The notes beneath the pieces were generated by a model. It did no database searches. It saw only the letters and a list, made by a program, of their open reading frames with translations, and had not been told where the DNA came from. A stretch of 64,000 nt of DNA from Beverwykella pulmonaria (Eukaryota > Ascomycota > Dothideomycetes > Pleosporales > Melanommataceae). The DNA is taken from the NCBI GenBank assembly GCA_001599595.1, contig BCHH01000008.1, positions 2,637,563 to 2,701,562 on the forward strand, given 5' to 3'. Positions 37,507 to 60,789 of the stretch are shown one piece after another (positions within the stretch are counted from its first letter, which is position 1; the number at the start of each line of letters is the position of its first letter). Made by a program: the position numbers and the translations under genes.

Positions 37507-37598
37507 GATGCTGTGTAACCATGAGCTTACGGGGAATCGTCAGCATTGTGAAGCTCGTTATGACCTCGCAAAAGAGAAAAACGATGAAGGATGGTGGC

Positions 37599-37794
37599 TG
37601 TTGGTCTCACAGGGCTATTGCAATAGCAATGGGTGGGTTCTAAGCAAAGTAATGATTCGTGTATGTGTCTATCTGAGGTGAGGCTTAGGAGGTTGTATCA
37701 TCCCTTTGTCGCCAAGCATCGCTAGTGTCTCATGTGATAAACACGTGATCACAACATCACCACGTGATCACAACGTTCTATATATATTCCAACA
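37599..37794 (+). mobile_element. LTR-like element copy 1 (196 bp) with 5-bp TSD
   Basis: The element begins TGTTGG and ends CCAACA, an LTR-like 6-bp terminal inverted repeat. It is flanked on both sides by GTGGC, a perfect 5-bp target-site duplication. Inside are CACAGGGCTATTGCAATAGC near the left end and two CACGTGAT boxes. TTCTATATATATT lies near the right end. Copy 2 at 51899-52155 shares the ends and these landmarks in reverse orientation. It is best read as a solo LTR, or otherwise a small non-autonomous element with 5-bp TSDs. Confidence 0.85.
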
Positions 37795-38265
37795 GTGGCG
37801 GTTAGTGGATGTCCAATCTACTACCTCAGGTAAGAGCCCTTTGATAACTTTTCGCTGGATTCGTCATTCGTTATAGATGCATGGATGGTTCTGGATACTA
37901 ATGACATGACAAGCAGGAGTCCTCAGCTCACAGAGTTCTTTCGGATCTCGCCAGTGAGGCAAAGAGTTTGTTGGCAGAATAACCTCGACACAGTTCCAGG
38001 TTACAAACTCATTTAAATTGCTAAAGATGATAGAAGTGCTGGGTGGGTTAATATCAAAAATAAACTTACGGCCCCAGGACGTGGTCTGTTACGATTCGGC
38101 TTTGCATGTGTCTTGACCGGTTTCAATTTCCAAAATTGCCACCCTTTTTCTTAAATGCTCGACATTGCAATAGAAAGAAACATTGAAACCTCATCCAGGT
38201 TGCTCCACAGTCTTAGCCAAAAGCTTTCGCAATCGCACATCAACATTCATCACACACAAATCGCA

Positions 38266-38672
38266 ATGAAGATCCCCACCTTACTCATGGCTGCGGTTCC
38301 ATCCCTCGTCTCTGGGTGGTAAGATCTAGCTTCCTGTAACCCTGCATTAGGAAGAAATCGATCGAGGCATTTTGACTAACAGTCCCAAAAAGGCACCTCC
38401 AACTCTACGCAGACCCACACTACAAGAACATCATCGAGAATCGCGAGGGCACCTTAGGCCAACCTTGCAAGAACCTCGCCCAAAAAGACGTTGTCTCCTC
38501 CATGCATTGGTACGCGGGGAGCTTGGGATGTGGCGTTGCTTTGTACAACGATGACAACTGCAAAAAAGTCCTTTATAATACTGGAGGCTGGGATACGCAT
38601 TTGGAGGATATCGGGAATATGGACGGGAGGTTTGATAATCAGGTCAACTCTTACGAAATTAGTTGCTTCTAG
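38266..38672 (+). CDS. Small secreted cysteine protein (110 aa), candidate effector-type
   Basis: Exons 38266-38318 and 38393-38672 flank a 74-nt intron (GTAAGA...CTAAC...AAAAAG, phase 2). The join across a Trp codon gives 110 aa. Residues 1-17 (MKIPTLLMAAVPSLVSG) form a signal peptide. The mature part has four cysteines (GQPCKNL, SLGCGVALY, DDNCKKV, EISCF), consistent with two disulfides, and the motifs SSMHWYAGSLGCGVALYNDD and GGWDTHLEDIGN. I recall this type as small secreted proteins common in plant-associated ascomycetes, but have no functional assignment. Using the earlier AG at 38381-38382 would give a different, cysteine-poor frame. It sits 470 bp downstream of LTR-like copy 1. Confidence 0.78.
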
Positions 38673-39264
38673 TGATTTGTCTGCCGCTGGGTTCGTTGGT
38701 CGGATTTGGGGTTCGTTCTTTTGGTTCGATCAGATATGGGGGTTGAATTGCTACCTTACTTCAGTCAGTAGTTTACAATGAAAATCGGGATGCTTTCGTC
38801 TTCTTGGGAAGTGAGATCCCGCAATATGCAGAGATTTTGAATACAGCATTGGGCACAGGACAAACAGAAATTCGATTGGACCTTCTTACCCCAGCCTTAC
38901 GTATATTGACATCGGCCGTGAGCATTTGTGGCGTGTTGCGGCTGAAGCTTAGACTCGCGAAATCGCGTGTAACTGTCGTCCGCAAAAGCTCGTATATGAT
39001 GCGAGGTACGATGGAAGCGAGAACTCATATCGTTTCTTCGGGTTTTCTGGCTTGACATGAGCGAGGCCATATGCTGTCAAAAGATTGTTCAGTTTCCATG
39101 AGTAAGATGCATGAGAGCCTCCGGGACTGATCCTTGCAGATCGGCTGATCCATCTGCAACTCTGCAATGAATTTAGGTAGTCATTTCTTGAAGGAATAGT
39201 ATGAGCTTGATCGAAAAATTGGAGCAATTCGCTGTTCTCGCGTGTTATCGGAAGTTCTTGATTG

Positions 39265-39780
39265 ATCTTAGGTTTTGAATTCATGATGCGCTGCAATTCC
39301 CCACTAACAAGCATAGCTTTGCTGGCATCCGGTGCGTATGTGAAAATAGAACCTGCAATCTGCGACCTTGAAATGAGGCTAACGAAGCAGATATAGAACT
39401 AGAAGATGGAGTATTCTTGGTCAGCGATCAGTGTTCCACCGTACCAGAAAGCCAGTGCGGCACAAAGATACACGAGAGATTGGGAAGCAGCATAGAGACT
39501 AGACGCGGACAGGATGGAGCGGAGAGACTTGGCCGCCTGCTTGGCTAGGAGCCCGTCATAGCGTTCTAGTCTATACTCCTCGATTCCAAGGGGCGCGACC
39601 GTACGGACTGAGCGGACTAACTCTCCTGCATAAGCTGCTGAGTCTAGTCGCTCTGTCTGATTTTGGAGTCGAAGGCCGAAAGCATCTGCAGTCGGAGCCA
39701 GCCGCAGGCCACCATAACAGGTATAGTAGCGGTACATACGAGAGCCAGCTTCCATCCATGTACATTTCTTGCATTGCGTG
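39265..39780 (-). pseudogene. Decayed fragment of an MDR-type ABC transporter membrane domain
   Basis: Reading the minus strand, GWKLALVCTATIPVMVACGW appears in one frame. A frameshift near 39.68 kb leads into AAYAGELVRSVRTVAPLGIE, SASSLYAASQSLVYLCAALA and FWYGGTLIADQEYSIF. Then comes an in-frame TAG (39401-39399), and the homology resumes with FYICFVSLISRSQIAGSIFT and YAPDASKA. This is the transmembrane domain of a fungal full-length MDR/ABCB-type exporter, without either nucleotide-binding domain. The stop sits where the family has Gln (CAG), so it is a CpA-to-TpA change. The upstream ~110 codons of the same open frame (to 40136) do not look like transporter and are not counted. Confidence 0.8.
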
Positions 39781-41959
39781 TCTGATGCGCTTGTTTCAGT
39801 TGCAGACACAGTCATGTCTCTGGAGACTAAACCACGTACTACAACTTTGGGCCCAGTCTCATTTTCATCAGACAGGACAATATCGCCCACGGTATCGCCC
39901 GACGATTCCCGGTACCCTTTGGAGTATCCCAGTAATTCGGAACCAGGAGCTGTGGGTATGTCTGATGCCACGAAAACACTGGCAATTGAGACTGGGATCA
40001 GTGATTCTTCGCAAGACAAAGAGTGAAGATAGCCGAAAGTGTGAATGTGAAAGAATGAGTCAAGCGTGCAGGCGTGTATGAGATGCGGATACTCATACTT
40101 TGCAGGCATAATCGATTTCGTGTCTGGAATTCGCACGGGGGAAAGAAGTCGATCAGCCGCCGATAGGGCACGGTTATGTTCTATGGAGTGAAGTCATCCT
40201 CTCCAGCGGCGAGGATAAAGCAAGCGGAGCAAATACGACTTGTGGGTCTATGAATGGCAGCGGAGCCCACCTAGATAGCTGTCTTGAGCTGACGTGGGGC
40301 TCTACATAGGCACTCACGTTGATTACTAAATCACCCCACGCTCTCACAGACTGATATAGAGTAGCAGTGACTTCCCTGGTGAGATATGATGCTGAGCAGC
40401 GGCCACGGTGTCTGTCGAAAAACCGTCGATGATGAGAGCATCATAATTGGGTTATGATGCTAGCCCTTGCTACGTAGAAGATTCGTGGTCACAAGCAATC
40501 CATACTCTTTCTGCCATACTTGCGCTCTTGCACCACCGTGGATTAGCGTTCCGCGAAACCCACGGGCAGTCGACTAACACCGTCCAAAATACCTTCCCAT
40601 TTCACGGGCGGGTATACCGACAAAATTAGTATTAGTTGTAAGAGGGCAAATCGCAAGGACTGGACCAAGGTATACCAAAGAAGTTATATTCGATGAAGAG
40701 GTATCTACGGATATAGGGGATGAATTTTTATTAGGGGTTGTCTGGCTGCTTGGTGTTGCTTAGGGGTGGCCACGGTGATGCGCGGTCGGCGCGCAGCCGT
40801 GTGACAGGGTTTGTGTATAGGTCATTTAGGCAGTGGATAACAATTGGTAGAACAAAGATGGTATGTATTCGTGGCAACAAGACGAATCGCTGCCTAGTAT
40901 GACTAGCAGAGGGAGGGATTGATATACCCCTCGCCACCTGGCCCAGAATGGCCCAGAATGGCGCAATAGAACCTGTGCGCTTTACGCATAGAGCAATAGA
41001 AGCTAAATATTAATGTAGTTAGGGCTACTATTAAATTTTCAAAAGATACTAGATAGCTATAGGAAAGCACCCCAGCCTGTAGAAAACACGCTAATGCAGC
41101 AGTGAAATACCGCTGCCTCTAATCGGAAGTCGCATATGTCCACACTGCCCAGGTGCTATAGTCGCCTTCATCTAAGTTGGAATCAGAGACCTAAAATGGT
41201 CCAGAATGTAATAGGTATACTCCTTTAATGCATGAGCAATAATGGATATGCGAAGTTCACCTCTCACGTTTCGTTTCTGATCCAGGCTTGCCCTCGATAG
41301 ACGTCACAACGGAGCAAATATGATATGTTATTTATCCCTGCTAGATTCTTCACTTGATTTCTTCTTAAATGTACCTTTTGTCTTATGTTACCTTGTACTA
41401 AGTTTTTATGGGAGGTTTTGTAGGCAACTTTTGCAAATCCACTCTGGCTTTGCTCTATTATAGCGTAGTAACGCACACAGGTTTTTCTCTCAAATTGGTA
41501 TAGGAGCATTTTCTAATAGAGGAGAAGAAATTCTATTAGTCCGAAGTAAAGATATCTCTTTTTTTCCAAGTTAAAAAAGGATGACGATGGGGGAACTGGA
41601 GGAAGTGCGAAGTTGATTAACTGGTCTAGCAAATCCCCGTATTTCCGCTCTAGCGGTAATTAGTATAGTATTAATTTGCACTATTGCACCGCTCATATAG
41701 AAGCAGATTAAAGGTAGGGTATCACGACAAAATCATGTTACATTCGCGTGGAAGAATGCGAATCCTACCCTCAGAAAGGTTCGCGAATGCAGATACACGG
41801 TGAGAATATTTACACTAGGTGTGTGTAATGCGACATTCCACTATTAGTGTTGTGCGGCTATTTTAGGGTAATATATGGAAGGAGAGAACATTTAAGGACA
41901 GTATAGTCTCCGCAAAAATCGCTTGAAATTGTCGCACCAAAACTGAGTCGCACTTCAAG
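39781..41959. other. Intergenic, AT-rich
   Basis: This 2.2-kb stretch lies between the ABC relic and the AA9 gene. From 40.9 kb on it is strongly AT-rich, with many TA-containing stops, suggesting old mutated sequence. A short direct repeat CCCAGAATGG occurs at about 40941-40961. No gene is supported. Confidence 0.45.
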
Positions 41960-43351
41960 ATGAAATCAACATATCTTTTAGTAATTGGATTAATGCTGAT
42001 GAGCGCTAGTGCTCACTGTATGTCTCTGATTCCGGTCATTGATACCCTCTATTTCAATTTTCTCTCTCCCCCTTCTCCCAAACCGTGCATCCGCAGAATA
42101 CAAACAAGCGCTAAAGACTATAGATTTCTTCGACCGCTTGCTTCTGAATAACACTTGGTCCGAACCATGGGAATACATCCGGTGCGCGAATCCGCACATC
42201 TATTCCTTTTCCGTCAAAAGACTTGCTTACCAGTTTACATCCTAGACGGATCAGTCCTCAGCAAACAGGGAGCGATATCAAAACTGACTATGACTACATA
42301 ATCCCTGTCGTAGACCCAACCTCTCTCGACTTGCGGTGCGGCCGCAATGCATCGACTGCGTGGTCGAACCCGAAGACTGCGATAATACATGCTGGTGATA
42401 CCGTTGGCTTTGCAGTGAATACTTCGGTTGGGTTGCCGATAGTAGGCGCTCCGGTGATGCCATGGGATGTAGGTATTACCGATCTGATTTCTCCTGTCCA
42501 GCTTATCTCTACTCGACCTATTCTTCTCTATGATATGATTCCAAATCTCCTCCTTCTCACCCTAACTTTCTACACAGCGTTGGCCAAACCTATACCACCC
42601 TGGCCCTGCAACCGCATGGCTCTCCGCATCCCCCGGTCCTTTATCTGAGTACACAGGCGATGGGGGTTGGTTTAAGATTTTAAGCGTTGTAGGGAGGACA
42701 GAACAATCTGAGCCTCCCAATGATGAATACTACTGGAAGCATCAATGGGGCACCTATCAAGCAAAGAGTGTGAGTCTTCCTGTTAGACCTTCTATCCGTG
42801 CACATCCAGCTGCTACATTAGGTACATATAGATCGGTACTAACGTGCGTCTGTAATATTGTAGTGGCATTTTACTATACCCGCTTCCACACCACCTGGAA
42901 ACTACCTTCTCCGCTTCGAGCATATATATCCGCTGCCTGTAGACTCGCTGTACGTACCCTCCCGAAACCGCGTTGAAAACTCCCAAGCCTGGGATTACGC
43001 ATCGACAGCCCCTTGTAATGAGCTTGTTCATTTTGAATTGGTTTTCCCTTCACTGACTTTACACCGTTACATTTAGTCAGGGTTCGCAATTTTACGCCAA
43101 TTGCGCCCACATCAAGATTATCAACTCTAACGTCCGCGTCGGCACGCCAGGGCCGCTAGTCAATATTCCAGGTGTATACACGTTTGGACAGAAAGGTATT
43201 TGAAATATCAGGAGCGAATAAAACGTAAACCAGCTAACTAGGTGATTGTATGATAGAAATTTACTTTTATGCTGATGTCGGTAATGAGACGTATGATATC
43301 AGGGACTTTGTTGAGCCAAAGCCAGTAGTATGGACTGGCGAAGGGATCTAA
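41960..43351 (+). CDS. AA9 lytic polysaccharide monooxygenase (secreted, no CBM)
   Basis: Seven exons (41960-42017, 42124-42181, 42246-42468, 42578-42769, 42864-42949, 43077-43195, 43242-43351) join in phase to 281 aa with no internal stop. An 18-residue signal peptide (MKSTYLLVIGLMLMSASA) leaves His19 as mature N-terminus, the first copper ligand. The second His is H120 in YHPGPATAWLSASPGPLSEY and the axial Tyr is Y212 in QGSQFYANCAHI. Cys70 (DLRCG) and Cys215 (NCAH) would form the usual disulfide. Other AA9 landmarks are PWEYIRR, IIPVVDPTSLDLRCG, WHFTIPASTPPGNYLLRFEH, the GTPGPLVNIPGVY loop and the VVWTGEGI end. By family knowledge it oxidatively cleaves cellulose or related glucans outside the cell. 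No CBM1 follows. Confidence 0.92.
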
Positions 43352-44616
43352 CAGAAATGAGATTCTTAGTAGTTACAGAAGTTCGGTGTCGCTACAGAGC
43401 TGGCAACGCATCCTACGGAACATTGCGATCTTGTTCGTGTGTACTCTGGCCTAACCATACAACGTACATATGATAAAGCTCTTGCGCATGGTTCCTCACA
43501 TTCATTTATGCGTCATTTCAATGTTTCTTCGTCATTATAACACTACGATTACTACATGACGACAAAAGGTGTTGACTACATTCATACAAAACTTTCGGAG
43601 GCGTGTACAGGAAAGGTTTTCGGAGCTAGTCAGCGTTCATGTATGGAGGGATAGTACGTAAATCACAGTGCAGAGCCCGGCTTTGCTTGCGTTCACAGTA
43701 TTGGCGGGTCTATTCATTGTGTCACGGTTGATCGTGTTCCACACGGTGTTCCCTTTTGAGGTGTTATTTTGTAACGGTGTTATATATGGCGGACAGGGTG
43801 AGATGAAGGCTATCTATTGCAAGTTTGTGGGCACAAAGGTTTTGCCCACCTTCCAGGATTTTACGTATCAGATGGCGATCAACACGGCAGCTATGTCCAA
43901 GTGCAACCACACACACCACATTACCAACCCAACAGAATAACCACACAGGTCCCCCATAACACAGTATCCCGCACAGCCCAGTCGGTACGAATCGCGGTGA
44001 TAGTGATTATGGAAGCCTTCGTGGGAGTGGGAGTGGGAGGCCTGGTGCGATGGAAATTTACAGTGGAGAGATCTACGAGAAGGAATCAAAGATGGCTACG
44101 GTGGGGGAGTTGGGCGGAGACGTGAAACACGAGGTTGGACGGAATGGATATGGGAGTTCTTGGGAGGCTGGCGGAAGCGAGAGATATGAAGGTGGGACGT
44201 TAGGAGATGGGTGCGTCGTAACCGTATATTGTTCCTTTTGTCAACGAACTGACGTGGTCGAAAGTGCAAGAATACTGTGTCAGAAACAGATGGGACTGAG
44301 GTGTTAGACTCACAGCGTTCACGGAGCGTCCCGGTGGCGAAGATGTATTAATTCTTTCTAGTGTCAGTTAGCTTTAAGATGGATAAGTTATACACTACAG
44401 AATAATATCGTCGTCTAAATTAGAAAAGCGAGTGCGACTTCAGTGTCATACAAACAAGGCTGCTAATCAGAAAATCGGGTGCCACTCGCTAAATTATGGT
44501 GAGATTGCGCTAAATTTTTCCCAATGTCCTGTCGCCAGAGGACTGCTGCCTTGGCTTTCTAAGTCCCTCTCTGATTTTCCGAACTACATTCTCCAAAAAC
44601 TGCTTCTACGGCAAAG
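43352..44616. other. Intergenic between AA9 and HET-domain gene
   Basis: Frames at 43668-43940 and 43817-44125 include short hydrophobic segments but no recognisable domain or clean gene structure. The region also contains the HET gene promoter. I see no supported gene. Confidence 0.4.
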
Positions 44617-46299
44617 ATGCAGCGCAACATGCCAACCCTTCAACACACCTTGTTCGAGCCATTAGATCGAAATTCTCGTAGCATCAGACTTATCAAGATA
44701 ATACCTGGAAAGGGCCGATTAGTTCGCTGTAGCCTTACAACCTTCGAGCTCTCTGAGTGCCCTTCATTCATCGCTCTATCCTACGTTTGGGGGCCACCTG
44801 CTCCTACTGCCAGGGTCCGAGTAAATGACAAGTTATTGTCCGTGCGCAAGAATCTTCAACAAGCTCTTATTGCGATTAGGGATCAGATCAATACCGCGAA
44901 GGCCGACGCCAGGGCCAGAGCTGCTGTGGCCGAAAATGAACACTGGCCGCTTGCTTTTCGCATGGCCCTGGCCGAGAGTGACTGGTTCAAAGATGCCATA
45001 GATAGGTATCGGCCAGTCGCGGACAGGAAAGATGCGAGCACCTGGACATATTTCTGGATCGATGCCATCTGCATCAACCAACGGAATACAAAGGAAAAAT
45101 CTCACCAAGTTAGTCTCATGAGCACAATCTTCCTTCAAGCCGAGTTCGCCATCGTCTGGCTTGGCGATGCGGACGAAACCGACGCTCGCGCATTAGATTT
45201 CTTCCAACTGGCAAATAAATTGCTCATGACCTCTGATGCAGATTATTATATTTCACGGGACCCAAACTATCTCGCCGACTTGAGAGACCTCTGGAACCCG
45301 GCCATGAAAGAATCTCTTCAAAATCTCTACAATCGTCCATACTGGTCCAGACTCTGGGTCGTCCAAGAGTTTATGCGTGCCAGAGATCTCTTAATTCTCT
45401 ACGGCAACCGAACTTCCCCTTGGGAACCTCTCAATATAAGTCTATACAATCTCATAGAGGCCCCTGGTTTTGAGACATTGTCGGAACAGTACTGGGATTC
45501 ATTATGGAACAATCAAGCCCAGACACTCTTACGCACCAAACCGGGATGGCATTCTGGTGTCAGTGTGACCCTCTATGAGGCAATTAACTACTGGGGAAAT
45601 TGCGAATGTACAGACCCAAGAGACAAGATTTATGGACTTTTAAGCGTTGTACGCTTACGCACTACACATGTTCAACCAGACTACTCCAAGACTGTACCAG
45701 ATCTCTTCAGAGACGTTCTTTTAGAAGTCAACGAGAATTATTTTTTTCTTTGGGAAAAGGAGAGGTTCGAATTCGTCTGCAGACTGGTTGTCACGCTTAG
45801 GCTGGAACCTGGCATTAATTACGTCAGGAGCCGTGTCGCCCAGGCTTTCATCTCTGGGGATATGGAGAAAATCGCCCGCACCCCAACTCATAACAAGAAC
45901 TGGTTCAAATCCTCTAGTACCAGAGTTCCAGCTTTAAGTCAGGCGGTTCTCCACATGAATTCGTCTGGACTCACCCAAAACGCTGCCCTCCCCTGCTCAT
46001 TCAACCATTTCACGATACAGCCAACCTCAACCAGGATCAGCACTCAGGGGATAGTGAGAGAAGTAGCGGACGCAACGCTCAAAAGCACTAATAACATCAG
46101 AATGGTGCTACAGCGGTTTACGATTGTGTGTGGGCTCGCGAGCGCCATACTTGTAGTAGTCATCGCATTGGTGAAGGTTACGCCTAAGATGCTTATTACC
46201 GCGCCATTATCAAGATATGCGAACATCGTTCTCCCCATTATCCCGTCGCCATCCAAACTCATGTTTCTCCAAGAAATTGATCAATCCGAGAGTCTATAA
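44617..46299 (+). CDS. HET-domain protein (560 aa, single exon)
   Basis: An uninterrupted frame from ATG 44617 encodes 560 aa. The HET domain lies at about residues 48-215, with all three hallmark blocks: FIALSYVWGPP, then WIDAICINQRN followed by SLMSTIFLQAEFAIVWLGDA, and YNRPYWSRLWVVQEF. The middle region carries the usual downstream helices (CECTDPRDKIYGLLSVVRLR). A hydrophobic segment near residues 500-520 (VCGLASAILVVVIALV) could be a membrane helix, which I do not expect in most HET proteins. HET-domain proteins act in non-self recognition and trigger cell death during heterokaryon incompatibility. It is intact although it lies in a decayed neighbourhood, between two LPMO genes. Confidence 0.92.
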   Translation: MQRNMPTLQHTLFEPLDRNSRSIRLIKIIPGKGRLVRCSLTTFELSECPSFIALSYVWGPPAPTARVRVNDKLLSVRKNLQQALIAIRDQINTAKADARARAAVAENEHWPLAFRMALAESDWFKDAIDRYRPVADRKDASTWTYFWIDAICINQRNTKEKSHQVSLMSTIFLQAEFAIVWLGDADETDARALDFFQLANKLLMTSDADYYISRDPNYLADLRDLWNPAMKESLQNLYNRPYWSRLWVVQEFMRARDLLILYGNRTSPWEPLNISLYNLIEAPGFETLSEQYWDSLWNNQAQTLLRTKPGWHSGVSVTLYEAINYWGNCECTDPRDKIYGLLSVVRLRTTHVQPDYSKTVPDLFRDVLLEVNENYFFLWEKERFEFVCRLVVTLRLEPGINYVRSRVAQAFISGDMEKIARTPTHNKNWFKSSSTRVPALSQAVLHMNSSGLTQNAALPCSFNHFTIQPTSTRISTQGIVREVADATLKSTNNIRMVLQRFTIVCGLASAILVVVIALVKVTPKMLITAPLSRYANIVLPIIPSPSKLMFLQEIDQSESL

Positions 46300-47172
46300 A
46301 GCCACAAGCTGACAGCTGATGAGCTTGGCGGCACTGACATAAGCAGACTCAATCTAACCGGATATGGAAAGCTGCTTTGAGCGAAGTACCGACCGGGGTG
46401 GCGAGACCGCATGAATCCTCGCGCCACGCCAGCCATGAACCTGATGTTAGCTTAACTTCATTAGAACCGGTTTCTAAGAGCTAGGAACGATCTTTGGCAT
46501 GGAATTTGGCTAGTAAGTGTATATAGAAACGACTAGTTTGGCCATGAAAAGAAGGCTCATCGTGCCCAAGGCTAAAAAGTAACAAAGCGATTGTAATTCT
46601 TGGATTAAACAGAGCGTAGAGTATTACAAGAAGGTGCAGAAATTATTCCGGTATAAGTACTGCAAATATCAGCTTTTTGGGAAAGACTATTGTCTTCTAA
46701 AGTCAAAGTACCTACGCTTTGTCCCACAACACCGTGCGTCCCGCGACACCGGGATTGACCTTACACATAACAACGCACTGCAGATGTCTCCTACATATCA
46801 TCAGACATTTTACTACAATATCATGAAGTTCGAAAATCACATCAGAACTAAATCAAAGTTTTTGTTTCCCAAAGCAAATTCTTTATTATCAATATGTACT
46901 CAAATGGGTGTCTATGTGCTTTCCCGCCGTGGGGCCAACAAGTTAAGCAAAATCTTCAATTACAAATCAAACATATGCTGTGCTCCACCGTAAGGGGTCG
47001 AATGCATATCCAAATGCCAGCGCGGAGGAAATCGGATAGGAGCGCCCCAATTTAGTCTAGTCCTCCCTCCGCCAAATATCAATCTAATATTCTTTTCAGT
47101 TCAACTCCACATCCTAACAGTTAACCACTTCCAACAACCCCAACTTCAACATTAGACATCGAGAAGAGGTGG
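46300..47172. other. Intergenic, AT-rich
   Basis: The stretch lies between the stops of the HET gene (plus) and the AA11 gene (minus). A Lys/Tyr-rich frame of 119 codons at 46634-46993 matches nothing I know and looks like AT-rich chance sequence. Confidence 0.45.
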
Positions 47173-48252
47173 TTAGACAATGGTACGCTGCGCACGGTGC
47201 ATAAAGTCGCGCTTCGCAATCGCACCGTCCCGGCACTTGGTGCCGGCAGCGACGGGCTGGAAGACGACTTTACCGTGATTACAAAGGCCGAACTGTGACT
47301 CGCCGTTGCAGATTACCACACCTTCAGGTGAGCAGGGAGCGTCGCCACCTGGAGCCGGAGCTTGAGAAGGAGGCGGCGCCTGAGAAGAAACCGGAGCCTG
47401 TGGGGCGGCTGGCGCGGTGGAAACTGGGCCTGAGGGAGCGGTGACGGTGATCATGACGCGGATGGTAGACGTGATCTGAGGGGCTGTGGGAGTATCTGTC
47501 ATCTGGCCCGGAGCTGGAGCGACTGTAGAAGCCATACCAGGAGCAGGCTGAGCAGGAGGACCAGCCGGAGCCGCAGCGCCATTGCAAAGAGCAACGAAAG
47601 GACCGTTGCCAATCTTAGTCATGTACTTTCCCGGGTTCTCAAACGTGAAATCCGAAGATTCAGATGTATGACAAGTGCTCGGGGCGATGTTGGCGATGGC
47701 CATGTCTGGGAGAGACTCAAACGCCGCCTTATCATCAGCGCCACCGCTCACATTGATATGAGCGCAGTTCATGTACATCTCCCTGTTGCCGATCTTGTTG
47801 AACCATGTCCAAGCCATCGTAGCCTTACCGTTAGGGAGTTCTTTTGGAACGGTAAAGGGGAAGGTGCTTGCTGCGTTGGCGGTTGGGTCGTTGCCAAGGT
47901 TGCCTACAGCGGCTGCTGGGCAACCACCTTCGATGCTGTAGATGACTTTGAATTTCGAATTCTTCGTAGGAGGATTGTCGAGAGTTACCGACACTTGACA
48001 AGAACCACCGCCGTGTGTAGCAGACCCCGTAAACGACAAGGTCTGTTGACTACCAACGGCAAAGTCGTTCATCTTGCCTTCTGTGCTAGACGAGGAGCCC
48101 ATTTTGCACGGAAAGTCGGAACCTGAAGAGTCAAGTGGCGAGTTGTTCGGGTTGCCAAAAGGCACTGGGTTTGCGAGAATCATGTGCGCCGAGGCAATAG
48201 CTGCCAGAGCGAAGATAGAAGTGACAAGAATGGAAACTTTAGTGAATAACAT
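47173..48252 (-). CDS. AA11-type lytic polysaccharide monooxygenase with C-terminal Cys-rich module
   Basis: A single-exon frame encodes 359 aa. The signal peptide (MLFTKVSILVTSIFALAAIASA) leaves His23 as mature N-terminus. His80 lies in THGGGSCQVSV and Tyr160 in REMYMNCAHINV, giving the copper site of AA11. Other marks are NNSPLDSSGSDFPCKMG and FTVPKELPNGKATMAWTWFN. After a long Pro/Ala/Ser linker, a small Cys-rich domain closes the protein (PCSPEGVVICNGESQFGLCN ... GTKCRDG), a module often attached to AA11 enzymes. Characterised AA11 members cleave chitin, so chitin (own wall, fungal or arthropod) is the expected substrate. A TTTATAAA box lies about 145 bp upstream of the ATG on the minus strand. 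Confidence 0.92.
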   Translation of the reverse strand: MLFTKVSILVTSIFALAAIASAHMILANPVPFGNPNNSPLDSSGSDFPCKMGSSSSTEGKMNDFAVGSQQTLSFTGSATHGGGSCQVSVTLDNPPTKNSKFKVIYSIEGGCPAAAVGNLGNDPTANAASTFPFTVPKELPNGKATMAWTWFNKIGNREMYMNCAHINVSGGADDKAAFESLPDMAIANIAPSTCHTSESSDFTFENPGKYMTKIGNGPFVALCNGAAAPAGPPAQPAPGMASTVAPAPGQMTDTPTAPQITSTIRVMITVTAPSGPVSTAPAAPQAPVSSQAPPPSQAPAPGGDAPCSPEGVVICNGESQFGLCNHGKVVFQPVAAGTKCRDGAIAKRDFMHRAQRTIV

Positions 48253-49853
48253 TCTTCCAAGGCCTGCTGGAATCTTGCTAGTAAATGCAGTATGTTGGTG
48301 ATGCGCTTTAAGCTGGACTTGTGATACTCTGAATGCTTGAAAGTCGTAGTTGATGTGTGTATGATGAGAAGAGCGGAAGGGAACAAGAAGGCGTGTTTAT
48401 AAAGTGTCTCCGAAGGGGGAACTGAGAGACATTATTGGAAGTACAATACTGCTGTTGATTCACAATGACGCACCAATAGGGCAATGGGTGAATTCATGAA
48501 CAAGCCGCAAAGTGAATCAGTGATATTGAACGCACACAATGTTATTGTTTTGACATAGAATAGAAACAATATGGAAGGGATCTAAATGTGAAATTGAGAG
48601 GAATTTATGGGTGGACAATGAGACGTGGGCTTTTGTGCTCTTTTGCTCTTTTGCTATTGTGTAGGTTTGAGCTTCGGTAATAGGAGAAAATTTAAGAAAA
48701 CAAAGTCTACGACGAATGACTGGAAATAAGCGCAAACAGAAAGAAAGATATTCAACTCAGATCAAGGGCTCAAAATATCTGTCTAGTTTGAGAATCCAGC
48801 AAGCCATACGCTTGAATTCATTGGTCTACGTTAGTTAAATACGTTGTACGCCAGGACATCTGCGCTGTGGGTAGTGAATGTATGCAAGCGACTTGTTCAT
48901 CTAGAGTAGTGAAAGGGTGCAACATGTCCAGCTGCGATTTCAAGGCCACTAATATGCTAAGGCAGGGTGCTAAACGCGATCGTGGTGTGAGGGTGAAGAT
49001 TCCAGTGATGTGGAGATGGTGAAAGGTGGTACAATTCTCACTCCTTGGAGGAAAATGTTCACACGACAACTGGCTTTGCCCACCATCTGGCATGTCGCAA
49101 CAGAACGTACCACGGTGGTGCCTGCCAGGAGCAACAGCGGTGCTAGGAGAACACAAAGGACGAATCCTATATACAAGAGAGACATCACCATCAACAGCAA
49201 ACGTGACTGGGTGGCCGGTCGAGGCCTGGTGGACAACAGCAACTTACAGGTGCAGGCCTCACGCCTGCGCCTGTCTAGAGACGCACGTAAGGCACAAACA
49301 GAGACAGGTGTTTTTCCCCCAGTCCAGGAAAACCTTCGGGAGCTGCTTCTACGCATGGCCAACAGGGGGGTTTTTTGTTTGTTCATCTGGTGTAAATAGT
49401 GGCAGTTATCTACATAGCTCCAGCTAAAGGTCGGTACTGGACAGTAAAATAGATTAATTATTATTATTAATTTATCGTTGAGTTATGATTTATTGTTGAG
49501 CTCGTCGGGCCCGTGCGGAACATAGGCCTTTTTGGGAACAAAAACTGAGAATCAACCAGTAGGAGGCCGGGTAGTGATGCGTGTGGGTCCCCAAGATGGT
49601 ACTTTCCTAAACGAAATGCCCAACTATGGTATCAGCTTCTCTTAATATACCGAGACTAGAATGATCTTCCAGACTTAGCCCCTCAATTCTTTAGGTCTGA
49701 CACTAACAAAAGTAGAACACAGCCCAAATTTGAAAATATATTTTTGATCGTAGTCTTGAAACACAGTGCTGGAAGTCACATATACGAAGTACAGGCCCGA
49801 TGAAACCAGTATATCAAACCAGTTCTTTGAGCAATCCACATATCCTCATATAC
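48253..49853. other. Intergenic, upstream of AA11 gene
   Basis: The first few hundred bases are the AA11 promoter. At 48970-49430 three overlapping frames of 129-138 codons on both strands are open, but none matches a known family. The part at 49.44-49.5 kb is very AT-rich (ATTATTATTATTAA). Confidence 0.4.
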
Positions 49854-51298
49854 CTAAGGACAGTCGTCAAGTTTAAATTCCGTATACACAGAGATGTTCG
49901 TATCCTCTCGCACACTAAGAAAAGGCGGAGCTCGGGGCGGATTCAAATCCGTGTTCCAAGGGTAACCATACCTATATTCAGGCACACACATTAACGCTTG
50001 ATTCACTCACGAGACAGTAGTACTTACGGATAGAAGTCCTTCTTATGTATGATGTACTGGGCGAGAGCGTAGTAGGCGTAATTCTGGACACTGTAGCAAG
50101 TCAGCGAGAAGTTCAATGTCGTTCCGTCCCATCGCAGTTTAGGGCTTACTTATTGATATGGTTGTCCTTCTCTTCAATCTCGGGGAAGGTCAGATATTTT
50201 GTATCGGAGGTTCGATATGCACCCCCACCCCAGGGCATCGGAATGTCCTGCATATAAGGACTGGTATTTGGCGCGATCGCTTTACCAACCCACGAGACGT
50301 GCATCAGCTCATGTGCTATAGTAAAGGCTATAGATAGTTAGGCATTTTGTACGTGGATTATACCGGTAGGATCTCACCTCTGCTTCTGTAGATCTCCAAA
50401 TTGTTCCGAAGGCTTGCGTATTGGGATATTTTTTCAATTTGGTCGTCCATCTTAGGTCGCCGGAAGAAGCTACAACCCCTATCGTCAGAAGCCGATGCCA
50501 AAATCCTGCAAAACTATTTTAGGACAAAACTTACGCTGGACAGAAGTTGATGTGATCTTTGTCGGGGCCATCTATGATGGTCTATGATATGCTTGTCAGT
50601 CCGACACGTACATTTCCGATGGAGATGTGGCCACGGGAAATGGTCTTACATATGCAATGACGGGGTTCTGGTTTGGGGGGTTTGCAGGATCGCATGGATC
50701 GCCTGTGCACTAAACGAAGTCTTAGTATGTACAGATATGGATAAATATTATGATTGTGTACTTACCCTACGGAGGGGATCATCACACCGCACATTCAGTG
50801 TCCAGAACGTGAATGAACCTCTGCGAATGGAGGCAAGCTTGTCCATATTAGCTGCGCTGGTTAGTAACTTCCGGTACAAAATGAAGAAGACCGACTTGAA
50901 CAAACCTTTGATAGCTTCCCTGTTCCAAACCCTATCGGCAGGACCGAAGAATTCGATGCCCGGGGCACTCTTCCAATCCTTTGACGTGAGCCATGGGTAC
51001 TCATAAAGAGGTCTGGACAGCCAACGAGGTTAGTTCTAAAATATCGAGAAAGGTCAATATAGGTTACTAACTCTCCTGTATCAAATTGCTCTTCTGGCAC
51101 CATCCTCTCGAATTCGTCCCAGGCATCGTAGATGAATTGTTTGTCTGCGCAAGAGCTGTGGATGATTAGTCGTACTGCTTCTTCTGATGCCGTTGGTGAA
51201 GGTGGAAGGACAGCTGTTCCGGTGGGGATCGTAGAATTTTGCGCCACAGTGGTGCCGACTACACCGAGAAAAACAAAGGCTTTGAAAATAGTCCACAT
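49854..51298 (-). CDS. Secreted HEXXH zinc metalloprotease (M35-like), multi-exon
   Basis: Eight exons (51298-51072, 51012-50906, 50851-50766, 50709-50650, 50581-50535, 50469-50378, 50327-50150, 50090-50024) join in phase to 287 aa. A 56-nt intron (50027-49972) could instead skip the stop and add a ninth exon to 49854. The signal peptide is MWTIFKAFVFLGVVGTTVA. The catalytic zinc motif is HELMH at residues 212-216 (FTIAHELMHVSWVG). A downstream NNVQNYAYYALAQYIIH helix resembles the segment that follows the metal site in deuterolysin/Lys-endopeptidase relatives. Cysteines occur in SSCADK, VRCDD, CTGDPCDP and NFCPA. It probably degrades extracellular protein. Its paralogue lies 1.2 kb away on the plus strand. 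Confidence 0.82.
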
Positions 51299-51898
51299 AT
51301 TGGCGATGAGACGGTGCAAACGAAGATGGGAATAACCTCAATATATTCAATGCGATAGATTTCATAAGCCGTAGACTATGAAGATCAGGTGAAACGACAG
51401 CTAAGATTGGCTAGGCAGATTCGCCTACACCAATTACTGAAATAGTGTTTACTTTAACCTTTTCGCGTATATGTGTCAATTATCCCAACAATAAGATGGG
51501 AATAACTTTGACTTATTCAAAGCGACAGGTCTTAGAGATTTTTCAGTCAACACCATTTCGGAATTTGGTGTACTAGGTACTGAGACATCTAAAACCCTCG
51601 GTTTACGACAGCAATCCCAAACGCCTGGCTGCACATGGCTTTGATGGATGAATAGTCAATGATTCAGAAACGACGCCGATCCTTTCATTTGTCCCATTAT
51701 CCAGAACTGCTTGCAATTTTCAGTCGCCCCTGGAGTTTGATGGTCCATGATACAGGTACACGGGTCCGTGTTGAGCGGACTCCGTGTAAGGATTGCACCT
51801 TGAGCCGACCATGGACTAGTATATCGCGGTCTGTACACTAGAAAAGTTTGGCATGCGGGCGCATCCGTAAGAGATAGATTTGGCAGAGCCTCTAATAT

Positions 51899-52155
51899 TG
51901 TTGGGAGTATATAGAACGTGGGAATCACGTGTTGATGTGTAGATCACGTGTAGATCACGTGGAATGTATGGATCACGTGTGGAGGTACCAATCACGTGTG
52001 GACACGTGGGGCACTAGCCATACTCGGCTAGTGCACGCGACGGTGAGGTGGATGGTATTCCCTCTGCTGCACCGCTTCAAGATAGAAAGACACAACGATT
52101 TATTACCACCTTTGAGAACCCCCATTGCTATTGCAATAGCCCTGTGAAACCAACA
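51899..52155 (-). mobile_element. LTR-like element copy 2 (257 bp) with 5-bp TSD
   Basis: Read on the minus strand, it begins TGTTGGTTTCACAGGGCTAT and ends CTCCCAACA, matching copy 1 at 37.6 kb. Both flanks are AATAT, a perfect 5-bp target-site duplication. It carries five ATCACGTG boxes plus one ACACGTG, against two boxes in copy 1. It also carries a hairpin GCACTAGCC/GGCTAGTGC at about 52011-52034. It lies about 350 bp upstream of the pseudoprotease start codon. Confidence 0.87.
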
Positions 52156-52502
52156 AATATGATATCTCTCTCCTGATTGGACGCCATCTCTGAAATGATT
52201 GTCCAGGAACGAATGAATACCAGGTGACAGAGCCAATGACATCGAAGTCTGTGACTTGGCAATTATCGTGAATCAATTGAACACGTGAGAAGGTAAAATT
52301 ATCAGGACCAGGGAAGAGATGAGCAAGGCAGAGTTTGAATGTCAGGAGAGAAGTTCTAGAATCGGAATATGCATTTCTTCTGAGCCCAACATGGATCAAC
52401 CACTGCGACTACAATCTTCCGGAAGTGAGAGTGCGTTATAAAGTGCCACGACTACCCGGTAGGAGTTCTTATCGACTACGTTCTCGACTGTCGTATGCCA
52501 AT

Positions 52503-56832: not shown

Positions 56833-59800
56833 CTAGGCAATCCCTGACCGCAACGCAGAATAGGCGCTCTTCATAGCAGACTCAATATCTTTTCTCCTTG
56901 GCGGAGTTGCATTCTGCGCAAAGATGAACACGTATCGCACAGCAACCATTCGTTCATTTGGAACTACATAGTAAGACGACGGTATTAATGACTGTGGTCC
57001 AATGAGCTCACAGCCTAACAGAACGCGGATGTTTGAGAATGAGCTCCCCGCCCAGCCGTTGATAAATGGGGGTGCGTAGCTCATAGACATAGCTGGTTCG
57101 TCTGCGAGGTAAATGCCTCGGCCGCCACATGCACCATTCTTTTGCAGCGGTGTGTGGCTCAAGTTCTTCAGGCCGTCACACAGGATTGCGTACAGTCTAT
57201 CAAGTGATGTGCCGTGGAATACAACGCGCCCGAGTTGTGCTGACTGAGAAAATGCAGAGTGATGCTCTGGGTTCTGGTTCGCAAGGACGAATTGGGTCAC
57301 GCCAGGCATGTTCGGAATTTTGAAATCGCCCGTCGCGCAAGCGAGAAACCCTCTGTAATTATGGGTGACCCACGAGAGAATCTTCTCCACTGATGTACCA
57401 AGATTCCTCACGGCTGCTCCCATATCAGGAGCGCTTTGCAGAGTTGGCAGCGCTGGTATGAACCTGAGCGTCTGCACGACACTTCCGGCATTGACAGGGC
57501 AACCGCGCAAAAGTGCCCCTGAACCAGAACTTGCAGCACCATAGATCATAGTGATAAGTAGATCTAAGACCAAGTGGTCATTTCGTAAGTCGATGAGACG
57601 AACTTGAAGGGAAGAGCGCCTCCAGAGGAGGCTGCAGCTGACTTGACAGGTTGTGGACCGCCAGAGGGCGGAGCATGTGTTTCCGCATACAATGCAACAA
57701 TTTGCAAAATTTCCAATCTCGGCTAGCATGACGTTATATAAATGCTCGAGGCTGCATGTGTGGCTTCTTTTGGCAAGGTAACGGTGAAGTGTCCGGCTCA
57801 ACTGATAGTTTATTCGCTCCGGTTTTCCATAACAGATGGGACCATCAGGAGCATTTTCGTCAGTAGAGTGTCTTACAACACTCCAGGGCCGATGGCTTTC
57901 ATGCTCCTTTGGTCTAGGATTATTGTCCGGATGCAGATGCATGCAAAATGAGGACTCGCCGCTCGCCGGATTGAGTAGCACCCGAACGATCAGAGCACGT
58001 GCGCTGCCAATGGCCATGGCAATGCGCTGAAGCGGTTTAAGGTGTGTGAGCGGGTAAAGTAATTCAAATTCGCACTCTCCAACCCTCTCTACGACGTTGA
58101 TGAGGGAAGGGGGGAACTCCGAACCACTGTATGGTGAGATTGAAACACTGATGCCTATTTGCTGAACGAGTGCAGATGTTTTCCTGGCGTTATGTAATTG
58201 GAGTACCCGTCGAGAAGCTTCAATTGACTCTACCTCAGATATGATAGTCTTGAAGCTAGATCTAAGGAGCGCAGTAGCAGCATCCATACGGGAAAGAACC
58301 GTTTTTCCGTCGAGGTCGAGCTGTAGCCCCAAAGCCCTTGCATAACCTCTTACTGCGTGCTTGTCTAGAACTTCTATGTCATCGCGTTTTAGCCAAGAGT
58401 TGACGAAGTACTCTGCTGCAGCTTTCTTGGAGTCTTTATACATTCCCAACACGCGCAGGCAGAGGTGGGCCCCTTCTTCAGACATTTGGTTCAAAAGGGC
58501 GAGCGTTTTGCAGAACCTGGCAATGTTGGATCCATTCGAATCCAAAGAGTCAAATACCGACTCAATGACCGGATCGAGTGTCCGCGTCACAGAGGGGTTC
58601 ATCAACTCGAGGCAAGGGATTATTGTGCTGTGGTGCTGCAGGCCTCTTAGTATCCACTGTAAGCCTACGCTGCCGATCAAGTGTTTCTGGAGCCTACGTA
58701 GCGCTGGCAGGTGCTTCTCTGCCAGATTATGCATCCAAGATAACATCTTAGGCTGCAGAAGGACGTTATTACATGGGAGTTGTCCTTTCCACATGTCCGC
58801 AACCTTGGTTAAATCATCCAACCAGGCAAACCACTCATCGACCGAGCTTACTGTGTAACCGAGCTTGTCCCTTTGTTCTTCAAATATCCAGTGCAGCATG
58901 TGATGCCAGCACCCATATGAAGCGTTTAGTGGGATGTTCCTAGAAACAATCAGACGCGCAAGCGGAACGCAGTTTTTATCCGAAGCCACGCCGATTATGC
59001 TCCAGAGGTCTCGCATCAGCTGGTCAGGCGTGTCCATCATACCCTGGAGACACTCAGCGCGAACGGTCAGGGGCATAGCAACCGTTGTCACAATGCCATA
59101 GGCGAGTTCACGGCGCTCACGATCGACGGGAGCGCTCCAAATGGAGACAAGAGAGTCGACAATTTTATCGACGCTTGAGGGACAGGAACGGCCGCCGAAG
59201 CGGCCAAGGAAGTATTTGTTGAGGATCTCCACAAGTGGAGAGGGTGTGTTTGTTGGGAGTCCAGAATACCGCTCACGCAATTTGAAGAGGGTGTTGATGC
59301 TGTTACCATCAGGCATCTGGCTAATGGTCACCTTAGTTCCTGGAGATAGATGATCGGTGAACCATTCAGCCTTGGACAAGCTCATTGCGATGCTGGAGAT
59401 ACGATTTATAACTTCCATTGGGTGTCTCTTGATTTTTATGGTTTCACGCAGTCGTTGCTGCAGCTGCCTTAAGTTATCCTCTATGATCTGCACAAACTTG
59501 GGTGCCATCCTCTGGCGCAAGCCTGCATCACACGTGTCGGATAATATAGGGAGCAATAGTATCGTACTCGTAAGCTGGACACCATTGCTAGCTGAACATA
59601 CTGCCTGGGAGAAACCACAGAAGATATCCAGTTCTTGCGTCCCTGCTGCCGCAGCCATTCCATCAATGCTCTCAACATCGATAGGTTTGTGGCTGTAAAA
59701 CTCTCGGAAAGAAATCAAAGCTTTGGGCGGCATGAGGAGAACTTTGTCGAGAATAGCTAACATCTGCTCCAATATCTCGTCGACGCGAAGGTTGTCATAG

Positions 59801-60789
59801 TCTTCATGGCCTGTAATCAAAGTAGAGATATGAGCACAGCCGGAGCGGGTATTGGAAGTATCAACATTGTAGGCTAGGCTTTTGTGTAGCGTAGGGTAAG
59901 ACCCGCTTTCGAAATCGGGCCCTTCAAGCTCAAGAAGTTCTTTGAGTTCGATGCGTTCATCGTTGGATAGGCAGGTCCAAGTTTGTAGACGGATTCGATC
60001 TGGCTGCCATGAGGCCCAGCTTGGCCAATCTTCACACAAGTTGGCGAGCATGGGAGAGAGTGTGGAGCCAGCGACATTGAAGAGGTAAGTAGAGGTGGCA
60101 GCCCGGTTGATCCATGTAAGATCCATTCGAGAGGATTTTAATCCAGCTACAAAAGCTGCACAGGAGCGTTGCTGGATTGTTGAGGTCAACGGGAGGAGAA
60201 GTGATGGATCGGGAAGAGTCCTGATGAGGAGTTGGTCGAGGGCGATTGGCCGCGGCGGTTGTTGTTCTAATGTAGATTGGATGTAGTTCCTAAGACCCAT
60301 AGCCCAGCTGATTTCGGTGTCATCAATGGCTGTGGGATTTGCCTCTCGCACTTGTGGGAGGATAGCAAGGAAGGCCAGTGCTCTGGCATTGGAGTGCTCT
60401 GCGTCGAGCATCGAACGGAGTAATATTCGGACATCATTTCGCTCAAGCATGTGCACGCATGAGAGGATATGCGTCGGTCCCAAGACTTTATTCGTTATCA
60501 GACTGCTTAGGTGCTTGCTCCATTGTGTCTGTGTGAGTTCTTCGCTCTTCACCAGGTAGAGGTTGGCAAGAGCTTGGAGATGTGAGAGTGACAAATCTTC
60601 TCCGTGTCTTGACGCATGGCTTTCGAAGGACTGTACTTCTTTCGCCCACGCTTCGGTGGGTATGAGAGATGTCTGGTGGACGGCAGGAGTGTTGGTGGTG
60701 ACCGGTGTGTTTAAACGAGGCAGAGTGGATTTTCCAAACAATTTCCGCAATCGAGCACCCGCCGAGGGCCTCTCCCCTGTGACTTCCAT
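56833..60789 (-). CDS. Large intronless protein with C-terminal PARP-type ADP-ribosyltransferase domain
   Basis: A single frame of 3.96 kb from ATG 60789 encodes 1318 aa. About 980 N-terminal residues appear helical, with no domain I recognise. A possible zinc-binding cluster (CCIVCGNTCSALW ... CQVSCSLLW) comes near residue 1060. The segment LIDLRNDHLVLDLLITMIYG follows. The ART core spans ~1187-1290: VVFHGTSLDRLYAI (His1192), GRGIYLADEPAMSMSYA (Tyr1227), then VLLGCELIG and VVPNERMVAVRYVFIF. The third catalytic position is not a clear Glu, so mono-ADP-ribosylation, as in the PARP6/8/16 group, is more likely than polymer synthesis. Fungal relatives that I recall can carry an E2 ubiquitin-conjugating domain after the ART core; this one ends 30 residues after it. 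Confidence 0.87.
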   Translation of the reverse strand: MEVTGERPSAGARLRKLFGKSTLPRLNTPVTTNTPAVHQTSLIPTEAWAKEVQSFESHASRHGEDLSLSHLQALANLYLVKSEELTQTQWSKHLSSLITNKVLGPTHILSCVHMLERNDVRILLRSMLDAEHSNARALAFLAILPQVREANPTAIDDTEISWAMGLRNYIQSTLEQQPPRPIALDQLLIRTLPDPSLLLPLTSTIQQRSCAAFVAGLKSSRMDLTWINRAATSTYLFNVAGSTLSPMLANLCEDWPSWASWQPDRIRLQTWTCLSNDERIELKELLELEGPDFESGSYPTLHKSLAYNVDTSNTRSGCAHISTLITGHEDYDNLRVDEILEQMLAILDKVLLMPPKALISFREFYSHKPIDVESIDGMAAAAGTQELDIFCGFSQAVCSASNGVQLTSTILLLPILSDTCDAGLRQRMAPKFVQIIEDNLRQLQQRLRETIKIKRHPMEVINRISSIAMSLSKAEWFTDHLSPGTKVTISQMPDGNSINTLFKLRERYSGLPTNTPSPLVEILNKYFLGRFGGRSCPSSVDKIVDSLVSIWSAPVDRERRELAYGIVTTVAMPLTVRAECLQGMMDTPDQLMRDLWSIIGVASDKNCVPLARLIVSRNIPLNASYGCWHHMLHWIFEEQRDKLGYTVSSVDEWFAWLDDLTKVADMWKGQLPCNNVLLQPKMLSWMHNLAEKHLPALRRLQKHLIGSVGLQWILRGLQHHSTIIPCLELMNPSVTRTLDPVIESVFDSLDSNGSNIARFCKTLALLNQMSEEGAHLCLRVLGMYKDSKKAAAEYFVNSWLKRDDIEVLDKHAVRGYARALGLQLDLDGKTVLSRMDAATALLRSSFKTIISEVESIEASRRVLQLHNARKTSALVQQIGISVSISPYSGSEFPPSLINVVERVGECEFELLYPLTHLKPLQRIAMAIGSARALIVRVLLNPASGESSFCMHLHPDNNPRPKEHESHRPWSVVRHSTDENAPDGPICYGKPERINYQLSRTLHRYLAKRSHTCSLEHLYNVMLAEIGNFANCCIVCGNTCSALWRSTTCQVSCSLLWRRSSLQVRLIDLRNDHLVLDLLITMIYGAASSGSGALLRGCPVNAGSVVQTLRFIPALPTLQSAPDMGAAVRNLGTSVEKILSWVTHNYRGFLACATGDFKIPNMPGVTQFVLANQNPEHHSAFSQSAQLGRVVFHGTSLDRLYAILCDGLKNLSHTPLQKNGACGGRGIYLADEPAMSMSYAPPFINGWAGSSFSNIRVLLGCELIGPQSLIPSSYYVVPNERMVAVRYVFIFAQNATPPRRKDIESAMKSAYSALRSGIA

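Follow-up and report, generated by a model that had tools for sequence, protein, structure and literature searches.

What kind of mobile element left two short, oppositely oriented repeats with rows of CACGTG boxes in the genome of the fungus Beverwykella pulmonaria, and what might those boxes do for it? The repeats lie in a 64,000-nucleotide stretch of contig BCHH01000008.1 (assembly GCA_001599595.1, positions 2,637,563 to 2,701,562 of the forward strand), the whole of which is called the window here. An earlier note on this DNA had described two copies in opposite orientation that share TGTTGG/CCAACA ends and the CAGGGCTATTGCAATAGC block, that are flanked by perfect 5-bp duplications (GTGGC and AATAT) and that differ in their number of CACGTG boxes (two versus about six). 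They were read as claimed, at positions 37599-37794 (two boxes) and 51899-52155 (six boxes), with both duplications present. Our joint explanation, which we hold with a probability of roughly 0.85, is that both copies are solo long terminal repeats (LTRs) of a GalEa retrotransposon, left by two insertions whose interiors were lost by recombination, and that the CACGTG row in their U3 region is a putative enhancer for a basic helix-loop-helix (bHLH) factor.

Two LTR copies and their relatives across the genome

Both window copies, when read in one sense, run from the TGTTGG start through a TATATAGAAC stretch and the CACGTG row to a GCTATTGCAATAGCCCTGTGARACCAACA end. The features used below are as follows.

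51899..52155, plus strand: complete solo LTR, six-box subfamily, 257 bp, with the U3 end at 51899 in element sense (genome matches; paired copies L009, L010, L011 and L012/L013)
51894..51898: left target-site duplication AATAT
52156..52160: right target-site duplication AATAT
51924..52008, plus strand: box array, with CACGTG at 51926-51931, 51945-51950, 51956-51961, 51974-51979, 51993-51998 and 52003-52008
52011..52034, plus strand: hairpin GCACTAGCC / GGCTAGTGC immediately downstream of the box array, folded as DNA
52127..52140: U5 palindrome GCTATTGCAATAGC, common to both subfamilies
37599..37794, minus strand: complete solo LTR, two-box subfamily, 196 bp (genome matches; paired copy L022)
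37594..37598: left target-site duplication GTGGC
37795..37799: right target-site duplication GTGGC
37742..37768, minus strand: two CACGTG boxes, at 37742-37747 and 37761-37766
37610..37627: core block CAGGGCTATTGCAATAGC with the U5 palindrome

The first five boxes of the 257-bp copy read ATCACGTG, and the sixth is the one at 52003-52008. The 196-bp copy has a third, altered box, CACATG (in plus-strand letters CATGTG, 37731-37736). When folded as DNA, the hairpin behind the six-box array has a z score of -3.77, and 2 of 200 shuffles fold equally well. Aligned over 258 columns, the two copies have the same letter in 130 of the 195 columns that are lettered in both; because agreement is limited to this level, we class them as two LTR subfamilies of one Ty1/copia family. 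Their unlike target-site duplications, together with the difference in subfamily, show them to be two independent insertions.

The family proposed in the earlier note has further copies. In the 45.6-Mb assembly (31 contigs), the core block CAGGGCTATTGCAATAGC gave 182 matches with up to one mismatch, and its reversed control gave none. The 257-bp copy has at least 40 full or near-full-length genome matches (95-100%) plus one partial match; the 196-bp copy has at least 40 (93-100%), one of them spanning 176 bases. The six-box array word occurs 69 times (up to one mismatch) and the two-box array word 105 times (up to three mismatches; one three-box copy counted twice). By comparison, 18 LTR/leader junctions were found with up to three mismatches, a search that decayed junctions would escape, and 12 of the 18 are exact across the 22-base search word. 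Given 182 LTR cores and just 18 junctions, most LTR copies appear to be solo LTRs. The interior of both window elements would likewise have been lost by LTR-LTR recombination, as expected from the established biology of LTR elements.

For comparisons between copies, 86 loci yielded 78 full-length places and, after removal of locus-end cases and duplicates, 61 full-length LTRs (37 of the six-box type and 24 of the two-box type). Eleven of the 61 belong to paired elements or lie beside an element interior (L008, L009 twice, L010, L011 twice, L012, L013, L022 twice and L047). A survey of target-site duplications, as the earlier note had proposed, found exact 5-bp duplications in all five paired-LTR elements (L009 GTCAG, L010 CAAAA, L011 ATACA, L022 GTAGG, L012/L013 CTTAT) and in 46 of the other 50 LTRs. 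The remaining four read as a 6-bp duplication (L068) or show none (L030, L051, L056); the aligned LTR ends of L051, L056 and L068 were trimmed.

Paired elements and their coding interior

The LTR-like nature and past mobility that had been proposed for the window copies are borne out by the genome-wide search for full-length elements, which recovered direct LTR pairs that flank copia-type coding regions and are bordered by 5-bp duplications. L009 and L010 are 6073 bp each; L011 and L022 are shortened internally, with 2596 and 2554 bp inside. The LTR pair is identical within L009 and within L011, differs by a single N in L010 and a single N in L022, and differs by two bases in L012/L013. This last element (L012:396-652, L013:4408-4664; duplication CTTAT) holds a large insert and is nested in an older copy of the same family.

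The coding frame of L009 and L010 contains many stops, and at least one genome copy has an open frame of 1722 codons. One piece of this frame (L087) matches RVT_2 (E 6.1e-12), with QTDD at residue 327 and CQPEA at residue 419. The piece upstream (L088) has DTG at residue 10 and, after it, matches gag_pre-integrase at E 1.5e-05, with 25.1 bits against a cut-off of 28.4; it also contains loose H..H and C..C words. The position of DTG and gag_pre-integrase upstream of RVT_2 fits the Copia order. Of 7996 candidates scored in a protein search, 310 are relatives with 1e-10 or better; among the matches listed (the best 120 of the 310), organism-named relatives are 41-56% identical and several are labelled as Ty1/copia-type. 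We take the source fungi of these named relatives to be Pezizomycotina. A Pfam search of seven short frames from L009-L011 and a comparison with solved structures gave nothing useful.

A protein search of viral contigs found no relatives; an exact 16-base junction word occurred in 10 viral-contig stretches, about the chance number by our own estimate, and was not used. Elsewhere in the genome, at G000:C9:2273817-2274104, a reverse transcriptase (RT) match was reported within a 5267-codon open frame, which is perhaps a run of N.

Assignment to fungal GalEa Copia

Fungal GalEa elements have TGT..CA LTRs that average 235 bp, 5-bp duplications, and the DTG, QTDD and CQPEA motifs, according to the passages of Donnart et al. 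2017 (PMC5445492) drawn on here. The LTRs of the present family (196 and 257 bp, TGTTGG..CCAACA) fall within the GalEa limits of 138-311 bp with TGT and CA borders, the 6073-bp elements fall within the range of 5428-7018 bp, and one copy has a single large frame of 1722 codons. The family also has the 5-bp duplication, the DTG protease signature, QTDD in the RT, CQPEA at the RNase H start, and CHSeq1. Within the two frame pieces (866 residues in total), neither the word K[SA]RLV (for the KSRLVI motif of the RT) nor AD..TK (for ADxxTK at the RNase H end) was found; the frame end lies outside these pieces. A C2C4C4H zinc finger in gag and an HHCC/DD35E integrase are further GalEa traits.

The leader sequence adds to this likeness. 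In fungal GalEa Copia, a Conserved Hairpin Site (CHS) takes the place of the primer site, and its first half is CTGATCAGT or CTAATTAGT, found in 85% of families (PMC5445492, in the passages concerned). CTGATCAGT lies directly 3' of the 5' LTR in L009, L010, L011 and L022, and CTAATTAGT takes this position in L012. CHSeq2 is described in the same source as the inverse complement of CHSeq1, 12-41 bp downstream; in L009, ACAGACAG lies ~20 bp downstream and is one base short of the expected CHSeq2 match, as judged by eye. Inspection by eye alone assigned no tRNA primer site, and the GalEa hairpin fits instead. A hairpin after the 5' LTR may stand in for the usual primer site, as has been proposed for fungal GalEa (PMC5445492).

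In L009, L010, L011, L012 and L022, the last LTR bases pair with the leader around the CTGATCAGT word, at -12.5 to -15.3 kcal/mol and a z score near -2.5. At its inner end, the outer stem closes with a G-C pair in L009/L010, an A-U pair in L011/L022 and a G-U pair in L012. These changes are a hint, not proof, because there are three distinct sequences only and C-to-T mutation alone could yield them. For 5 of 8 elements, the published hairpin is larger and has a bulge or loop where it meets the LTR junction (PMC5445492); the passages considered report no inverted repeat in U5 that would be complementary to the CHS, whereas the LTR end of the present copies pairs with the leader. The main text of that paper is also without CACGTG, E-box or bHLH, in contrast to the CACGTG rows carried by the LTRs described here. 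Judged by its sequence features, the family is a new member of fungal GalEa Copia, and the window copies are solo LTRs of this copia-type retrotransposon.

CACGTG boxes: number and conservation

By position, the boxes are assigned to U3, because they fall in the leading half of the LTR when it is read along the coding frame. In the window, ATCACGTG occurs 9 times against 1.89 expected, and 0 of 100 shuffles attain 9; seven of these occurrences belong to the two LTR copies. The shorter word TCACGTG shows a weaker excess (14 vs 7.8 expected; reached in 5 of 100 shuffles). Genome-wide, ATCACGTG occurs 3020 times against 730 for the reversed word, which is a loose control because it lacks CpG. By extrapolation from a partly biased sample (per-copy means of 4.89 and 1.92 applied to 69 and 105 arrays), ~540 occurrences, or near 18%, lie in the arrays of this family, which make up ~0.08% of the genome.

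Box number is mostly fixed within each subfamily: of the 37 six-box-type copies, 34 have six, two have five and one has four, and 22 of the 24 two-box-type copies have two, the other two having one. L031, of the 196-bp type and outside the set of 61, has three. The variable box number reported in the earlier note thus holds between subfamilies and through a tandem unit of ~19 bp, as in three-box L031; the two window copies are not one LTR altered only in its number of boxes.

Box positions differ between copies less often than the rest of the LTR. In the complete set of 30 loci retrieved with just the core word, compared with the window copies rather than a majority sequence, the window letter is changed in 2 of 531 box cells vs 146 of 3162 cells elsewhere in 16 six-box-type copies (P 5e-8), and in 1 of 168 vs 131 of 2302 in 14 two-box-type copies (P 0.002), with P values that treat related cells as independent. 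A smaller subset retains 19 of these 30 loci, the others having been removed because they duplicated best-match loci or did not pass the full-length filter; here the counts are 2/282 vs 66/1612 for 8 six-box-type copies (P 0.0026) and 1/132 vs 97/1803 for 11 two-box-type copies (P 0.012). The full set of 37 and 24 copies gave 7/1320 box cells vs 248/8132 and 2/288 vs 147/4392, a count that is biased since a word from within the array had been used to retrieve 30 loci (L057-L086) and some of the remaining loci came in as best matches.

Several results weigh against a functional reading of the boxes and need to be kept in mind. Outside the two LTRs, the window holds two ATCACGTG, which is not above expectation. 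Cells from related copies are not independent in the comparisons above, and a block permutation on the 8 and 11 copies gave a borderline result, with counts as low in 1002 and 1798 of 20000 random block sets (about 0.05 and 0.09). Among the core-word loci, the six-box array is richer in gaps or N (45 of its 576 cells vs 86 of 3248 elsewhere), so boxes are lost whole by deletion and not by point changes. Lastly, the copy with the 1722-codon frame has LTRs of the two-box kind in which one of the two boxes of the searched word reads CACATG, so more boxes do not accompany an intact frame.

What the boxes may do

It is most likely that the boxes are putative enhancer sites for a host bHLH factor. 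In the proposed mechanism, the CACGTG row, which lies in U3 upstream of the transcribed part, would act as an enhancer; a host bHLH protein of the Cbf1, Pho4 or SREBP type would bind it and drive element RNA; and every solo LTR would so leave behind two to six such sites. This is supported by the lower frequency of differences at box positions than at other LTR positions. The host genome has 11 helix-loop-helix (HLH) matches, all above the Pfam cut-off. Our literature searches on CACGTG in fungal LTRs, and on bHLH or E-box links of retrotransposons and fungal solo LTRs, turned up unrelated papers or none.

A partial parallel is offered by Tf2 of fission yeast, a Ty3-type element and thus of another superfamily than copia, whose host factor Sre1/SREBP belongs to the bHLH class. 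Tf2 is activated by Sre1/SREBP via sites in its LTR (PMC4981269). Both are fungal retrotransposons with an LTR that responds, or in the present family may respond, to a host factor. They differ in that Tf2 has sterol-response sites and its activation was tested (PMC4981269), whereas the present family has CACGTG and its activation by a bHLH protein is inferred.

Other explanations need to be weighed. The boxes may be just a decaying minisatellite of ~19 bp in U3, without a binding role: the repeat spacing and three-box L031 fit tandem slippage, the arrays gain and lose units, and box number does not track an intact frame. Against this, differences at surviving box positions in the 30 core-word copies are ~10-12 times rarer than in the rest of the LTR, even though CACGTG contains CpA and CpG, the dinucleotides that mutate most inside the family, and we regard the minisatellite explanation as unlikely, if the most serious of the alternatives. 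It is more doubtful still that the role of the boxes is to silence or insulate, through a Cbf1-like protein that they bring to the LTRs. ATCACGTG does fit RTCACRTG, which we take to be the site of Cbf1; an element lineage should, however, not retain sites for its own silencing, and paired copies whose LTRs are identical or nearly so have kept their arrays. As for the window copies being miniature inverted-repeat transposable elements or another kind of DNA transposon, they are short and numerous, as such elements are, but the terminal copies are direct rather than inverted, lie on either side of copia coding regions and come with a single duplication for each element; this origin is ruled out for practical purposes. 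The enhancer reading is accordingly the one we prefer, and the bHLH idea of the earlier note is plausible and testable; its suggestion that insertions could bring such sites to nearby genes is hypothetical.

RIP-like interiors and spared LTRs

Over the L087 stretch, L009 and L010 show 105 and 96 C-to-T or G-to-A changes relative to the open copy, against 13 and 18 of the reverse kind. The changes lie mostly at CpG and CpA and resemble repeat-induced point mutation (RIP). Between L009 (501-6573) and L010, in element sense, there are 318 internal differences (N excluded), 314 of which are transitions at CpA/CpG. Of the 6073 bases, the 395 at the start and the 342 at the end, LTRs included, are free of differences. 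At the internal CpA/CpG rate, ~18 differences would be expected per LTR (nominal P 1e-9 for zero in one LTR). Likewise, 287 of 653 CpA/CpG sites are changed in three compared stretches of the own interior of L012/L013, and its LTRs differ by two bases. Of 59 convertible codons, 13 are stops in both L009 and L010, against 5.8 expected (P 3e-5). This excess of shared stops suggests a common, already broken parent that may have been copied in trans; gene conversion, or hot spots of mutation common to both elements, would be another possible source.

In the crapaud element of Podospora, by contrast, RIP strikes the LTRs of full copies too, according to the relevant passages of PMC10787394. The two families are alike in U3 differing between LTR subfamilies, in many solo LTRs and in RIP in full copies, and differ in that the mutated copies of the present family have spared LTRs.

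Several processes could have produced this sparing. The mutator could fade at repeat edges, as RIP can do. The passages considered of PMC4858203 and PMC12543289 hold nothing on such fading. Selection on cis parts during trans-mobilisation, LTR homogenisation, or assembly collapse (there are single Ns in one LTR each of L010 and L022) could also account for it, as could shielding by a protein on the boxes. In an extended form of the shielding idea, the CACGTG row would be a protected island: bound host bHLH protein would keep the RIP-like machinery off the LTR and hairpin leader, so that copies with dead coding regions would retain functional cis parts and intact relatives could mobilise these copies in trans. 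We consider this highly speculative and improbable. The spared zone extends past the LTR, an extent that agrees best with edge fading and cis-part selection.

Other features and significance

At G000:C1:662079-662212 and C1:1585880-1586011, ATCACGTG recurs with spacings of 48 and 76 bp that are the same at both places, apparently in another repeat family. The window also holds a frame with a HET domain (44617-46299), AA9 and CBM19 matches below cut-offs (47173-48252), a frame with a PARP catalytic domain (56833-60789) and an ABC transporter membrane part (39399-40136). The HET protein has 24 relatives at 26-32% identity, and those with an organism name are fungal.

The family spreads many copies of one putative transcription-factor site over a fungal genome, which makes it a testable case of transposon-borne regulation. 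The pairing of mutated interiors with untouched LTRs raises the question of how repeat-directed mutation stops at element borders, and also whether dead elements may persist by keeping their cis parts alone.

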